From: Fimbriimonadaceae bacterium
GTDB lineage: Bacteria > Armatimonadota > Fimbriimonadia > Fimbriimonadales > Fimbriimonadaceae
Direction of reading: 5' to 3'
DNA: 64,000 bases
NCBI GenBank assembly: GCA_019454105.1
Contig: CP075364.1
Span: 1,801,362 to 1,865,361 of the forward strand
Below, piece by piece: positions 3,188-25,689 of the stretch. Below the pieces are notes generated by a model. The model did not search any database. It was not told where the DNA came from and saw only the letters and a list, made by a program, of their open reading frames with translations. The number at the start of each line of letters is the position of its first letter. Within the stretch, counting starts at the first letter, position 1. Position numbers and translations under genes: made by a program.

Positions 3188-3766
3188 CTAACCCATCAGC
3201 TCGTCCATGTGGGCGACGCGGGCCTCATTGCCTTCCAGCCCCACCACCACGACTGTCTCCCCGGATTTGATGGCGCCCCCGTCTTCCCTTTTGGCCAAAA
3301 TGTCGATAAGTTCGCCCTTGATACTTACCCGGATCTTACCGGGTTGCACCCCCTCTCCGGCCACCAGGACGCGCGCTTCCTTCCCGACGAAGTCTTCGGA
3401 CAAGACCGTGTTATGCATCGTCACGCGGGGCAATAAGCGCATGATCCAAGTGACCGTGAGGCCAAGGGCCGCGCCAACCACGGCCGACACCAGCCCCGTC
3501 ACCGGCTCGGCGCTCATCTTGAGGAACGTGAGGGCCAATCCCATCCCACCGAACGCGGCCGCGAAGTACGTCCAGAAGCGGATGCTGAGGAACGGGATCC
3601 AAAAATCATGGACCCCACCGTGGCCGTCACCGGAGTCCCCGCCATGGGAATGGTCGAATCCGACAGACCCGCCATCGACCGACGCATGGTGGCCCAATCC
3701 TCCGAGGGCGCTGAACAGGACAAGCCCTCCTCCCACAATCGTGGCGATGGTGTAGACCGCTAGCAT
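3188..3766 (-). CDS. NfeD/YqiJ-like membrane protein with C-terminal OB-type domain
   Basis: First gene of the flotillin operon, 192 residues. An N-terminal membrane helix is followed by a His/Gly/Asp-rich loop (about residues 25-52), two further hydrophobic segments (about 56-110), and a soluble C-terminal domain with EARVLVAGEGVQPGKIRVSIKG-like beta pattern expected of NfeD OB folds. NfeD proteins partner flotillins at the membrane. The His-rich loop could bind metal, but that is only a guess. The start ATG at 3766 lies 6 bases after a TAGATT -10 element, so the operon mRNA is probably leaderless. Confidence 0.82.
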   Translation of the reverse strand: MLAVYTIATIVGGGLVLFSALGGLGHHASVDGGSVGFDHSHGGDSGDGHGGVHDFWIPFLSIRFWTYFAAAFGGMGLALTFLKMSAEPVTGLVSAVVGAALGLTVTWIMRLLPRVTMHNTVLSEDFVGKEARVLVAGEGVQPGKIRVSIKGELIDILAKREDGGAIKSGETVVVVGLEGNEARVAHMDELMG

Positions 3767-3923: not shown

Positions 3924-6900
3924 TCACATTTCAAGAAGGATCGTCACAATCTCGAACGGGCCAAAGGCGAAAACGACCGCGCCATCGACCACGTCGAGGG
4001 ACTCGGTCGGCCGCTCGTTGAGGTCGGCCGCCCAAGCCCGGCGAGCTGGCATGACGCAATGGAGCGAGGCCCGCCCCCGGGTCCCATGGCACTCGTACAG
4101 CCGCACGACCAGCCGGTCGGAGTCCTCCGCGCGTTTCACCGTCTCGACGACGACGTTCCGGTCGTCGCACGAAACCAACCTGGGGAGTTCGGCCCGGGCC
4201 CCGACTCCCGGCCGGAGTGGCAAGACCCGGACAGGGGCGTTCACGGCATAGGCCGAATGAACCACGTCGCTCTGGTTCAATGAGCCGTAGTGGGGCAACA
4301 AGACATAGGTGAACCGGTGAACGCCCATGTCGCACGTCGGGTCGGGGGCCTTTGGAGACCGCAGCAAGGTGAGCCGGAGGGTGTCGCCAAGGACGTCATG
4401 GCCGTACTTGCCCGTGTTGAGCACCGCCGCCCCGTAGTCCGCTTGGCTCAGATCGGCCCATTTTTGGGCGCACACCTCGAACCGCGCCAAGTCCCAACTC
4501 GTGTTTCGGTGTGTCGTTCGATCAACGTGACCGAACTGGATCTCGAACTTGGCGGTCGAGCTCAGGACAAAGAGCGGGAAGGCGACCTTGAGCATCTTTT
4601 CGTCCTCTTGCCAGTCGATCCAGGTGTCGAAGCGGATGCCCGGGGTCGGCCCGAGACTGATCTTTTGTCGGAGAAAGCTCGAACCGAACCGTTTGGTGAG
4701 CTCGACAGCGGCCCGCACCGGGCCCCGTTCGACGACTTCGAAGCTCTCACTCTTGAGGAGATCCCGGCCCGTCTCCAGCGCGAAGACGTCCACGTCCCAA
4801 GCGTCCCAGAAGAGCGGGTGGTCGTCAAAAATCTGGAAGACGTTGGCGAGCTTCCCAGGCGCGACGAACTCGATCGGCTCGTCGTCCAGCGTCTGGATGC
4901 TCGCGATGTTGCCGTTGCCGTCGAACTTGACGCTCAGCTCTGAGTTCTCCAGCCGGCGCGAGGCGGCTTTGAGCCGGGGATAGAAGTGCGGGGCCGAATC
5001 GACCAGGTCGCCGACCGTGACCGCGCCCGCCGCCTCGAACGGGGCGGAGAACACGAGCTTGCGATCGCCGAAGTCGTCCACCAACTGCACCGGTAGCTTC
5101 TCCCCAGCAGTGCCGAGGGCGACAGGCGCCTCCTCCCCGTCCCAGGGCAGTTCAGCCTGGCTCGGGAGGACGCTATTGTGGAACAGGGCCACAGGCAGCG
5201 ACATGCCTTCTCGGTCGAGCTTGTTGCCAAGCCAGGCGAGCCGGTCGGCGACGATCCTCTCCCCGATCTCGCGTGCGGCGGCATAGTCCCGGGAGCTGTC
5301 CAGGTAAACCTCTCGCACCGACGACCCGGGGATGATGTCGTGGAACTGGTTGAGAAGCACCAGCTTCCAGGCCCGCTCCAACTCCTCCTTGGGATAGCCG
5401 TCCGGATGGTCGGGACAAAAGCTGGCGAGCCACTCCGCGTCCCTGAGGAGAAACTCGAGCTCCCGGTTCGACCTCTTGTCGGCGGCCTGGCTCGTGTAAG
5501 TCCCGCGATGGAGCTCAAAGTAGAGCTCCCCGACCCACGTCATGAGGTCGTGGCTCTCTTCGGCCGCTTTCTCGAAGAACCGGCTCGCCTTGACCCGGCG
5601 CTCGATCGCCGGCAAACCCGGGGCGTTCTGGGCCCGCCGGAGGAACTCGAGGTGCTGCTCGGTCGGCCCTCCACCTCCGTCGCCAAAGCCAAAGACATAG
5701 GCCGATCGGTCGCACCGGCCGTGATCTCGGTACTTCTTGACGCTCTCGACGATCTCCTTCGGCTCGCAGCTCGCACAGTAGGTGTCGGCGGGAGGGAAAT
5801 GGGTCCAGACCCGGCTCCCGTCGATCCCTTGCCACCAGAAGGTGTTGTGGGGGATCTTGTTGAACTGGTTCCAACTCAGCTTTTGGGTCAGGAAGGCCTG
5901 GATCCCGAACTTGGCGAGGATCTGTGGGACTGCGGCGGAATAGCCGAAGACGTCGGGCAGCCACATGTCCCGGGTCTCGACCCCGAACTTCTCCTGGAAG
6001 TACCGGCGGCCATAAAGGAACTGCCGGACAAGCGACTCGCCGCCAGCCAGGTTGCAGTCCGCCTCGACCCACATCGAGCCGACAGGCTCCCAGGCCCCTT
6101 TGGCCACAGCCGCCTTGACCCGGGCGAAGAGCCCCGGATGATCGTGCTCGAGCCACTCGTACTGTGAGGCCTGCGAATGGACGAAGACGTGCTCAGGGAA
6201 CCTTTCGATAAGGTTGAGCTGGAGGGCCGTGGTGTGGGCCATTTTGAGCCGGGTGACGTCGAGAGGCCAAAGCCAGGCCGTGTCGAGATGGGCGTGACCA
6301 AGGGCGGTGACCGTGTGGGCCGCTTCGTCAGCCAGGCTCTCGAGCGTCGCTTTGAGGCCCCGGCGACACGCGGCCACGCTCTTGCGAGATCCCGGTGAGA
6401 ACAGGTTGCAAACGTCGTTCAAGGCCCGGAGCACGATCGCCCGGTGCGGACCGTTCTCGTCCAGGGCCTCGACCAGCTTTTGGGCGAAGTGAACGTCGTA
6501 GTAGAGCTGGACCAGGTCACGGTCTACGGCGACAAGATAGAACGGGCGCACCGTCTCGGGCTCGGGAGTCCGAGGTTTCTCGCGGACGTGCACCGTCGTC
6601 TCGAGGTTCCGGGCGTATGTCTCGATCTCAAGCACGATCCGGCCCTCCCCAGGGCACTTGTCCGACACCCGGTGATACGGATGGGCCCAGTCGAGGGCCC
6701 CGACCACGACCCCGTCCTGATAAATGAGGCCCTCAACGGTCTCCTCGGCAGGCCATCCGTCGGCGGGGAGGGCGTTCGGCTTGTTGGCGGCGAGACCGAC
6801 CTCGAGCCCTTGCCAGCCATCGGGGACCACTCCGGTGACCCGGTACTTGGCCCGGCGGTAGGCGGGCCCCCACCGAAAACCCGGCTCGACCGCTCTCCAA

Positions 6901-12661: not shown

Positions 12662-12791
12662 CCCCAGTAGAGACGACAGGTCTCGCAACTGACTCAGGGC
12701 ACGACGGGGGCGACCCCGATCACGCAAAGCCACGGGTCTCTCTGAGACAGCCGGGCCGCCAGCACCGAGGACACGTCGTGAAGGAACTGTC

Positions 12792-23363: not shown

Positions 23364-24278
23364 TTGTTCGCGGCCCGCATCCTCTTGGGGACGGCGCTCT
23401 TTCCACCGGCCGTGGCGACCGTACTCGTCTTTGTCGTCTCTGTCGCCTTCGTCGCACTTCCGATCTATGGGCTCTTTCAGGCGGCGGCCCACCCGTGGAG
23501 CCCGAAGCCGGCATGGCTGCTGCTTGTTGGCGGGGCTCTGATCCACGCCGCAGCGGCCTTCCTCTTGAGGGCTATGCCGCCGTTCGGCCTTCCGTCCGTG
23601 ATCGTGGAGGCTCTCGGGCAAGTCGGACTTTCCGGATGGACGTTGGGCCTAGGCGTCCTTGTCGCGATGCTGATCAAGGACAAGAACATGATCCTCCCGA
23701 TCGCCGTGTTCCTGGCTGGATTCGACATGTTCTTGGTCTTCAGTCCCATGGGGCCAACGGCCAAGATCATCGAGGCCCAACCTGAGGTGTTCCAGTCGAT
23801 CGCGATGAGCGTCCCTGCTCCTCGCCCCATGGGCCCCGAGGCGCCGACCGGGGCCGCTGTTCAACCGATGGCCTTCGTCGGGCCTGCCGATCTCTTCTTC
23901 GTCACCACCTTTTTCGTCTGCCTGTACAGGTTCAAGATGCGTGTCGCGGCCACGGCCAGGTGGTTGGTGCCCGTCATGGCGGCTTACTTGCTCGTCGTCC
24001 TGTTGCCGACCGGGCTGAGCATGTTGCCTGCCCTCGTACCGATCGGTGCGACGGTCCTCCTAGTCAACCGCGGCGAGTTCAAGCTTTCGAGGGACGAGGC
24101 CATCGGCACGGCTCTGGCCGTTGGACTCGCCATCATCTTGGCCGGGTATGGCGTCTACTCCCGGATCACTCACAAGAGGCCAGAATCGCAGACTGCGCCT
24201 TCGAACGCGGCTCCCGTCCCAGATGCCGCAGCACTTCCAGCGACGCGCGCGCCAGCCGGTGCTGATCGATCCCGGTAG
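23364..24278 (+). CDS. Multi-pass membrane protein, unknown
   Basis: At least 304 residues with about seven hydrophobic helices and a low-complexity Pro/Ala tail. I recognise no family. The TTG at 23364 cuts into the first helix. In the same frame, ATT at 23316-23318 immediately before the GT4 stop would give RAPKGLAAYGWVVALLFAARIL, a complete first helix; no ATG/GTG/TTG lies between. The true start is therefore uncertain and may be a rare ATT coupled to the glycosyltransferase. The last 113 bases run antisense to the end of the HMG-CoA lyase gene. Confidence 0.7.
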   Translation: MFAARILLGTALFPPAVATVLVFVVSVAFVALPIYGLFQAAAHPWSPKPAWLLLVGGALIHAAAAFLLRAMPPFGLPSVIVEALGQVGLSGWTLGLGVLVAMLIKDKNMILPIAVFLAGFDMFLVFSPMGPTAKIIEAQPEVFQSIAMSVPAPRPMGPEAPTGAAVQPMAFVGPADLFFVTTFFVCLYRFKMRVAATARWLVPVMAAYLLVVLLPTGLSMLPALVPIGATVLLVNRGEFKLSRDEAIGTALAVGLAIILAGYGVYSRITHKRPESQTAPSNAAPVPDAAALPATRAPAGADRSR

Positions 24279-25050
24279 CGATCCCTGATCTCTCCAAGAA
24301 ATAGACCAAGTCTTCGGTCGCGAGGTTGCCGCCGGCGCCAGGAGCGTACGGGCAACCGCCCAAACCGCCTGCGCTCGCGTCGAACGCCCGATACCCCAGC
24401 TCGATCGCCTGGGCCACATTGGCCACAGCAGTCCCCCGCGTGTCGTGGAAGTGCCAAGCCACCTTTGACGGTTCGACTCCCAAGACCTCATGGAGCGCCC
24501 GGACCTCCTTGGGCGCCGCGGCCCCGATCGTATCGCCAATCGAAACCTCGTCGACGCCAAGGGCCGCCAAACGCCCGACCACGCCAGCCGTCGCCTCCGG
24601 GTCGATCCGGCCCGCATAAGGGCACTCGAAAGCAGTACTCACATAGCCCCGTGCCCAACCACTTGGACGGGCGGAACGGAACACCGTCAGGATTTCCCCG
24701 AAGACCGCCAGGGACTCCTCGATAGACATATTGATGTTCTTGTGGGTGAAAGCGTCGCTGGCGGCCGTGAACACCGCGATCCGATCGACTCCGCACTCCA
24801 AAGCGCGTTCAAGCCCCTTGAGATTCGGCACCAAAGCCGAGAACAAGGTTCCGGCAGGCAGCTGGGCCCACAACTCGGCCGCATCGCCAAGTTGAGGCAC
24901 CCACTTCGGCGAGACGAAGCTGGTCGCTTCGATCTCTTGCAGCCCGGCTTCGGCAAGAAGGGCCACGAACCGGGCTTTGAGCCCGGTCGGAACGGTGAGC
25001 TTTTCGTTTTGAAGCCCGTCCCGAGGGCCGACTTCAATGATACGGACCAT
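24166..25050 (-). CDS. mvaB: Hydroxymethylglutaryl-CoA lyase
   Basis: Cleaves HMG-CoA to acetoacetate and acetyl-CoA, the last step of leucine degradation. It has 294 residues. Signatures: EVGPRDGLQNE at the N-terminus, EATSFVSPKWVPQ, the metal-binding HFHDTRG, and the loop GLGGCPYAPGAGGN holding the catalytic cysteine. Start ATG at 25050 is chosen because TAGAAT (25058-25063) ends 7 bases upstream; ATG at 25059 would give three extra residues but lies inside that box. No ribosome site is visible. It is preceded by a terminator that separates it from the upstream operon. Confidence 0.93.
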   Translation of the reverse strand: MVRIIEVGPRDGLQNEKLTVPTGLKARFVALLAEAGLQEIEATSFVSPKWVPQLGDAAELWAQLPAGTLFSALVPNLKGLERALECGVDRIAVFTAASDAFTHKNINMSIEESLAVFGEILTVFRSARPSGWARGYVSTAFECPYAGRIDPEATAGVVGRLAALGVDEVSIGDTIGAAAPKEVRALHEVLGVEPSKVAWHFHDTRGTAVANVAQAIELGYRAFDASAGGLGGCPYAPGAGGNLATEDLVYFLERSGIATGIDQHRLARASLEVLRHLGREPRSKAQSAILASCE

Positions 25051-25057
25051 CTGGGCC

Positions 25058-25063
25058 ATTCTA
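25058..25063 (-). promoter_or_regulatory. -10 element TAGAAT for mvaB
   Basis: TAGAAT on the minus strand, immediately after the terminator U tract and 7 bases before the mvaB ATG at 25050. It predicts a leaderless mvaB message independent of the upstream transcript. Confidence 0.45.
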
Positions 25064-25066
25064 AAC

Positions 25067-25094
25067 AAAAAAACGGCTCCGGTTCCCGGAGCCG
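25067..25094 (-). terminator. Intrinsic terminator upstream of mvaB
   Basis: Minus strand: perfect 9-bp stem CGGCTCCGG with CCGGAGCCG (25074-25094), 3-base loop, followed by seven U residues (25067-25073). This is the best canonical intrinsic terminator in the window; it ends the transcript from the intergenic RNA region, not mvaB. Confidence 0.9.
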
Positions 25095-25238
25095 CGCACT
25101 TTCATCTCTTTCAGGGAAGATCCCTCACTGACGCCATGCTTTGCAGGTCGTCGCAAGGTTCACTCTTGCTTGGAAACGCCGCTGTTCTAGCCCTCCGAAC
25201 CCTGGTCAGGGGTCCGTCTATAGCTGCTTCCAGAGATG
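25067..25238 (-). ncRNA. Candidate structured small RNA (about 165-170 nt) ending in an intrinsic terminator
   Basis: The 230-base gap between a hypothetical gene and mvaB has no coding potential that I can support. On the minus strand a TATAGT hexamer (25239-25244) could start a transcript near 25235. Its first bases CATCTCT pair with AGAGATG just before the terminator, and the adjacent GGAAG pairs with CTTCC, giving a closing stem that joins both ends. Local hairpins include GCAAG/CTTGC and AGGGA/TCCCT. Length, closed ends and terminator resemble 6S RNA, but I could not confirm the 6S central bubble. A cis-regulatory leader for mvaB is the alternative. Confidence 0.45.
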
Positions 25239-25299
25239 ACTATACCAGGAAGCGGGTCCAGTCATGAGACTCTTTCTATCGAATCGCTAGACCTAAGGT

Positions 25300-25689
25300 T
25301 CAACGGGTCGCAATAACTCGCATAACTACTGTCACAAAAACGCCAGCCGTCACGCACAAATACCGGCCTTCGAACCCGACCTCAGTGTCACGAAACGTGT
25401 GGGAAGCCCGCTCTGATTGTGCTGTGACCGAAGACCAAACAGTCCCCAGATCGACCTGCACCATCTCCGTGACGCGCTTTGAAAGCATGAAGCTGGAGTG
25501 GATTTGGATCATCGGGTCCAAGCCCTCCATGACGTCTGCCTTGGCGACCCTCAGGTAGGCCAGGCGGGTGAGTTCTTCGAGCAACCTTTTGCGGAAGTCT
25601 GATCGTTGCCAGTTGTCGGCGGGGGTGTACGCGGCCAAGTAGTCGGCCAGCCTCTTGGTGTACTGACTTGGATCGACTCGGTCACTCAT
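25300..25689 (-). CDS. Hypothetical protein (129 aa), last gene of the E2-amidotransferase-BCCP operon
   Basis: The 129-residue protein has a helical N-terminal part (VDPSQYTKRLADYLAAYTPADNWQRSDFRKRLLEELTRLAYLRVAKADVMEG) and a C-terminal hydrophobic stretch (YLCVTAGVFVTVVMRVIATR). I do not recognise it. Its ATG overlaps the biotin-carrier stop (ATGA), so it is co-translated with it. It could be a small partner of the carboxylase, but nothing in the sequence proves this. Confidence 0.6.
   Translation of the reverse strand: MSDRVDPSQYTKRLADYLAAYTPADNWQRSDFRKRLLEELTRLAYLRVAKADVMEGLDPMIQIHSSFMLSKRVTEMVQVDLGTVWSSVTAQSERASHTFRDTEVGFEGRYLCVTAGVFVTVVMRVIATR

Follow-up and report, generated by a model that had tools for sequence, protein, structure and literature searches.

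Between the gene for a 129-aa protein and an mvaB-like gene, the genome of a Fimbriimonadaceae bacterium carries a non-coding spacer that looks like a transcription unit of its own. Is this spacer a genuine RNA gene, does it belong to a known family, and does it serve the gene behind it? The initial annotation of the 64,000-nucleotide stretch analyzed here (hereafter "the window") had read the spacer as a candidate structured RNA, non-coding and equipped with a promoter of its own as well as a strong terminator. The features discussed below are given in the order of transcription; g16 is the sister genus, g10 a third and g25 a fourth genus.

25300 to 25689, minus strand: gene for a 129-aa protein (ORF), directly upstream of the RNA, which lies in the 3′ flank of its operon.
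25239 to 25247, minus strand: extended −10 of the RNA promoter, TGG-TATAGT (TGGTATAGT), recognized by sequence.
25238 to 25233, minus strand: CATCTC, between the −10 and the likely RNA start.
25067 to 25232, minus strand: small RNA of ~166 nt; the presumed +1 lies 6 nt past the −10 and the 3′ end is the end of the T-run.
25171 to 25232, minus strand: 5′ rod domain, consisting of P1, PA and P2, which folds closed in homologues.
25231 to 25226 with 25177 to 25172, minus strand: P1, GGAAGC paired with GUUUCC.
Inside the 5′ rod, minus strand: PA (GCU/GGC) and the P2 hairpin (CGGACCC/GGGUUCG).
25190 to 25195, minus strand: GAGGGC within the 5′ domain, invariant in g1 and g16 and partly so in g10.
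25163 to 25170, minus strand: conserved linker AGCAAGAG, identical across g1 and g16.
25119 to 25161, minus strand: hairpin P5 (GAACCUUGCGACG...CGUCAGUGAGGGAUC), supported by covariation.
25096 to 25125, minus strand: invariant 30-nt 3′ block AGGGATCTTCCCTGAAAGAGATGAAAGTGC, ending in GAAAGAGATGAAAGTGC, defined by sequence identity.
25067 to 25095, minus strand: intrinsic terminator GCGGCTCCGGGAACCGGAGCCGT followed by T7, the best terminator-like site in the window.
25058 to 25063, minus strand: −10-like TAGAAT, 7 nt ahead of the mvaB start codon, a probable separate leaderless mvaB promoter.
24166 to 25050, minus strand: mvaB-like gene (HMG-CoA lyase family, PF00682; Pfam E 3.7e-44).

The upstream operon runs in the order E2, peptidase C26, BCCP and the 129-aa gene (25300-25689, minus strand), whose product has no Pfam match. 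An equivalent 129-aa ORF recurs between BCCP and mvaB in relatives (G015 and G009; L013 and L056). mvaB, a leucine-degradation gene, is present in 80 of 85 genomes of the family.

Both ends of the proposed unit are well marked. The terminator stem (25095-25073) has 10 bp, 8 of them GC, ahead of the T7 run, so that the RNA ends on the minus strand in GCGGCTCCGGGAACCGGAGCCG-T7. As the initial annotation had claimed, no terminator-like site in the 64 kb scores higher. The terminators of relatives differ in sequence and keep the pairing. At the other end, an extended −10 of the TGTGnTATnnT type occupies the same place in eight genomes that have an RNA-like spacer before mvaB. An ORF check of the homologues found a single shared reading frame, over the 3′ block, where not even the wobble positions differ. 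A hidden peptide in the tail (AUG AAA GUG, which shares the mvaB frame in L074) was rejected because the AUG is absent in L025, the frame varies by species and the identity extends to wobble positions. Own promoter, intrinsic terminator and lack of coding content, the marks of a stand-alone small RNA gene, can thus all be read from the sequence. The stretch also folds better than its shuffled versions: the minus strand from 25238 to 25067 reached −71.6 kcal/mol (z −3.87), with 0 of 200 shuffles as low, and kept z −3.2 without the terminator. From the likelier +1 at 25232, z was −3.0 with the terminator and −2.0 without it.

Homologues were found in the same chromosomal context. BLAST recovered the 3′ part in G015, in an alignment that ran on into mvaB. 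The pattern AGGGATCTTCCCTGAAAGAGATGAAAG, searched among 85 family genomes, gave exactly one match in each of four g16 genomes; each of these loci has a promoter and a terminator, then mvaB, in the syntenic position between BCCP/129-aa gene and mvaB. A covariance model built from five sequences (R1) matched G009 in g10 at E 7.6e-5, directly before mvaB. By reading, a similar unit was recognized in G024 (g25), where GCGAC, AACAAGAG and GGATGAAAGTGAT precede the terminator and the model score is weak. In another g10 genome (G091; L068), a promoter-terminator unit ~200 bases upstream of mvaB is folded and has an unrecognizable core, which reflects either fast divergence or replacement.

Searches beyond these genera brought no clear homologue. 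A six-sequence model (R3), searched in 113 genomes of the order and 291 of the phylum, gave no further homologues except for one match in G221 (E 0.004), which was dismissed as expected by chance over 291 genomes. Weak covariance-model matches outside g1, g16 and g10 (E ~0.01-1) look like coding sequence and have neither promoter nor terminator; these were judged only where the locus was long enough, which left out L028 and L032. Occurrences of a 19-mer of the tail on single contigs of unrelated phyla were likewise taken as chance. The RNA was found in only ~4 of 32 genera. Reading upstream of mvaB across family genomes showed that most other genera have no spacer and that a coding gene abuts mvaB there.

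The homologues define an RNA of two domains. From the presumed +1 to the GCGAC/AAGAG linker, single-sequence folds give a closed rod in all seven homologues from different bases, with pairings such as GGAAGC/GUUUCC, AAGCCA/UGGCUU, GCCGA/UUGGC, and GUUGGC/GCCAAC versus GUUGGU/ACCGGC. Pairing of the rod ends exceeded the shuffle mean in 7/7 (three at p 0 to 0.005 and four at p 0.065 to 0.1), and in g1 and g16 the 5′ domain closes within 62-76 nt. This rod model replaced our first structure, in which AGGG/CCCU closed a helix P4. The AGGG of GAGGGC may instead form a pseudoknot with the CCCU of the tail, a pairing that never varies among the homologues. The linker has the variants AACAAAAG in L025 and AACAAGAG in L074, and a GCGAC-like motif lies 5′ of it in all homologues except the window. 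In P5, 95.8% of the cells are paired and 4 of 12 pairs are changed on both sides, in an alignment fitted to the model; this is the covariation that the initial annotation had proposed to look for. In that fitted alignment, covariation over the whole structure was matched by 0 of 500 shuffles and exceeded all slid versions, and an unfitted alignment gave weaker support (23 of 500 shuffles on score). The 30-nt 3′ block is identical in the window and three of the four sister-genus genomes, differs by one base in the fourth, and is recognizable as a variant in L025 and L074. Rod, linker, P5 and tail are thus kept in relatives, and conservation is not confined to the terminator. Because syntenic homologues exist in four sister-genus genomes, the third genus has a covariance-model match and P5 covaries, the RNA stands beyond chance. 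We conclude from comparative sequence evidence that minus-strand 25232-25067 is a genuine structured RNA, previously uncatalogued and restricted to its lineage.

The RNA matches no established family. No Rfam 15 family reached its gathering threshold in the RNA region or the sister-genus loci, which gave sub-threshold riboswitch and leader matches only, in keeping with the earlier suggestion that the family could be new. A likeness to 6S RNA had also been suggested, from size and from complementary ends (CATCTCT...AGAGATG and GGAAG...CTTCC), and this did not hold up. CATCTCT comes immediately after the −10 and spans about −6 to +1, which probably places most of its pairing with AGAGATG outside the RNA; this pairing is absent in L016, L019, L025 and L074. 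The partner of GGAAG(C) across the relatives is G(U)UUCC (25177-25172) and not CTTCC. With a closing stem probably mostly outside the RNA and not conserved, and GUUUCC as the partner of GGAAG, the RNA is not a closed 6S-like rod. 6S RNA is recognized by a closing stem, a large single-stranded central bubble and a terminal loop (PMC4064990), whereas here the 5′ domain closes on itself. RF00013 had no match at E 10 in the RNA region or the sister-genus loci, and an order-specific 6S model, built from nine sequences of sister families, gave at most ~10 bits anywhere, which is like background.

In the window's family, neither RF00013 (37 genomes) nor the order-specific model (85 genomes, in a filtered search) found a 6S RNA, and nine genomes of sister families have one. 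The family's 6S may have been lost or may have strongly diverged. This gap is what could be said for a strongly diverged 6S standing in for the canonical one, since the RNA has a compatible size, is a stand-alone unit and pairs extensively. We regard this as very improbable: the molecule is built of two domains, not of a single rod around a central bubble, the ends of its relatives are unpaired, neither the Rfam nor the order 6S model scores it, and a lineage-restricted RNA of ~4 out of 32 genera is unlikely to be the general 6S of the family.

The main rival is that the RNA acts in cis on mvaB, as a riboswitch or attenuator leader, with read-through of its terminator in certain states of branched-chain amino-acid catabolism. 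The promoter, the structured RNA, the terminator and the gene are co-oriented, and the gene is always mvaB, in 6-8 genomes; such strict same-orientation synteny is what a cis-acting leader predicts, and the order is that of terminator-type riboswitches and attenuators. In contrast to those elements, no known aptamer or riboswitch family was matched, and reading the homologues by eye revealed no common antiterminator or alternative pairing of the terminator arms, which are GC-rich and followed by T5-T8 runs. The one riboswitch match noted in the window lies elsewhere, a c-di-GMP-I hit at 12688-12763 (plus strand) that just exceeds the gathering score (35.7 against 35) and lies behind one ORF on the plus strand and opposite another on the minus strand. 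The leader reading also depends on how mvaB is transcribed. The initial annotation had given mvaB its own −10 after the terminator, so that the RNA need not be its leader. TAGAAT (25063-25058) is indeed there, and a YA[GC]AAT box precedes the mvaB start codon by 5-7 nt in all five g1 and g16 genomes; this part of the claim stands and supports the second. It does not extend to G024 (L074), where a Shine-Dalgarno sequence follows the terminator within ~15 nt and leaves no visible room for a separate mvaB promoter. G015 has a possible Shine-Dalgarno sequence (GGAG) before an alternative mvaB start, and with these two genomes read-through into mvaB is still conceivable.

The box-to-start spacing resembles the leaderless promoters of Deinococcus-Thermus (PMC12340547), a layout also described in other bacteria (PMC3160421). 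TANNNT occurs at the leaderless position of 3 of 48 long ORFs in the window, compared with 0.8% expected by chance, which suggests that this genome makes use of leaderless mRNAs; the boxes lie 5-6 nt before ORF starts at window positions 3766, 29879 and 55863. Most likely, as judged from these boxes, mvaB has its own leaderless promoter in the window's genome and in the sister genus. Moreover, mvaB can do without the RNA, since most other genera lack such an element and their mvaB follows a coding gene directly. Taken together, we consider a cis-acting leader possible and rather doubtful. An unlikely alternative is that promoter and terminator are a mere insulating spacer between two operons, with the RNA as a by-product. 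The spacer does replace the direct operon coupling of mvaB found in other genera, and in G091 promoter and terminator remain around an unrecognizable core; against this, the invariant 30-nt block and the covariation of P5 indicate selection on the RNA itself.

We therefore lean, with modest assurance, towards an independent small RNA gene of ~166 nt, located in the 3′ UTR of the E2/peptidase C26/BCCP/129-aa operon and predicted to act in trans through its invariant tail. The promoter-RNA-terminator unit holds the same position in g1, in four g16 genomes and in G009, and by reading in G024 as well. Judging by this anatomy, the RNA would be started by its own extended −10 and ended by the strong intrinsic terminator, which is likely to close the upstream operon as well. 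The 5′ rod and P5, whose structure is backed by covariation, may serve as a scaffold. The invariant, largely unpaired AGCAAGAG and above all the tail GAAAGAGAUGAAAGUGC would then be the contact site for a partner. That partner could be a protein, or else an mRNA or other RNA with which these segments would base-pair, probably while Hfq occupies the poly-U end. mvaB would be transcribed from its own leaderless promoter in the window's genome and the sister genus. Small RNAs with their own promoter embedded in a 3′ UTR exist, e.g. MicX of Vibrio cholerae (PMC9438474). Like MicX-type RNAs, the RNA follows the last gene of an operon, has its own promoter, shares the operon's intrinsic terminator, falls in the range of 100-200 nt and occurs with Hfq in the genome; unlike them, it is of unrelated sequence, comes from a different phylum and is known from sequence alone. 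Hfq is encoded in 9 of 9 genomes searched (PF17209, 95-99 bits).

Near-complements of the tail were no more frequent than in a reversed-pattern control. One perfect 17-nt complement (GCACTTTCATCTCTTTC) lies downstream of eno, in the window's genome only, where 0.0002 would be expected. Put differently, a second exact copy of AGAAAGAGATGAAAGTGC is found on the minus strand at L055:5122-5139 (C1:251121-251139), in the gap that separates eno from a DinB-like gene. A strong terminator on the plus strand (5289-5311) lies in the same gap; a plus-strand transcript there would thus be antisense to the tail. The surroundings of the copy are not conserved, and a partial sense copy of the tail is just as plausible, since a short hairpin precedes the tail there too. 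It is an improbable idea that the tail is an antisense seed and the post-eno stretch a dedicated sponge or target gained in the window's genome; if it were true, a lineage-specific RNA-RNA circuit would link leucine breakdown and glycolysis.

This RNA family is probably one of the first in the Armatimonadota to have comparative support; a literature search found no small-RNA study in the phylum. The invariant tail makes target searches practical. The locus illustrates cleanly how a small RNA can be inserted between genes that are co-transcribed. A few genera gained or retained the RNA, within a family where no canonical 6S RNA was detected.
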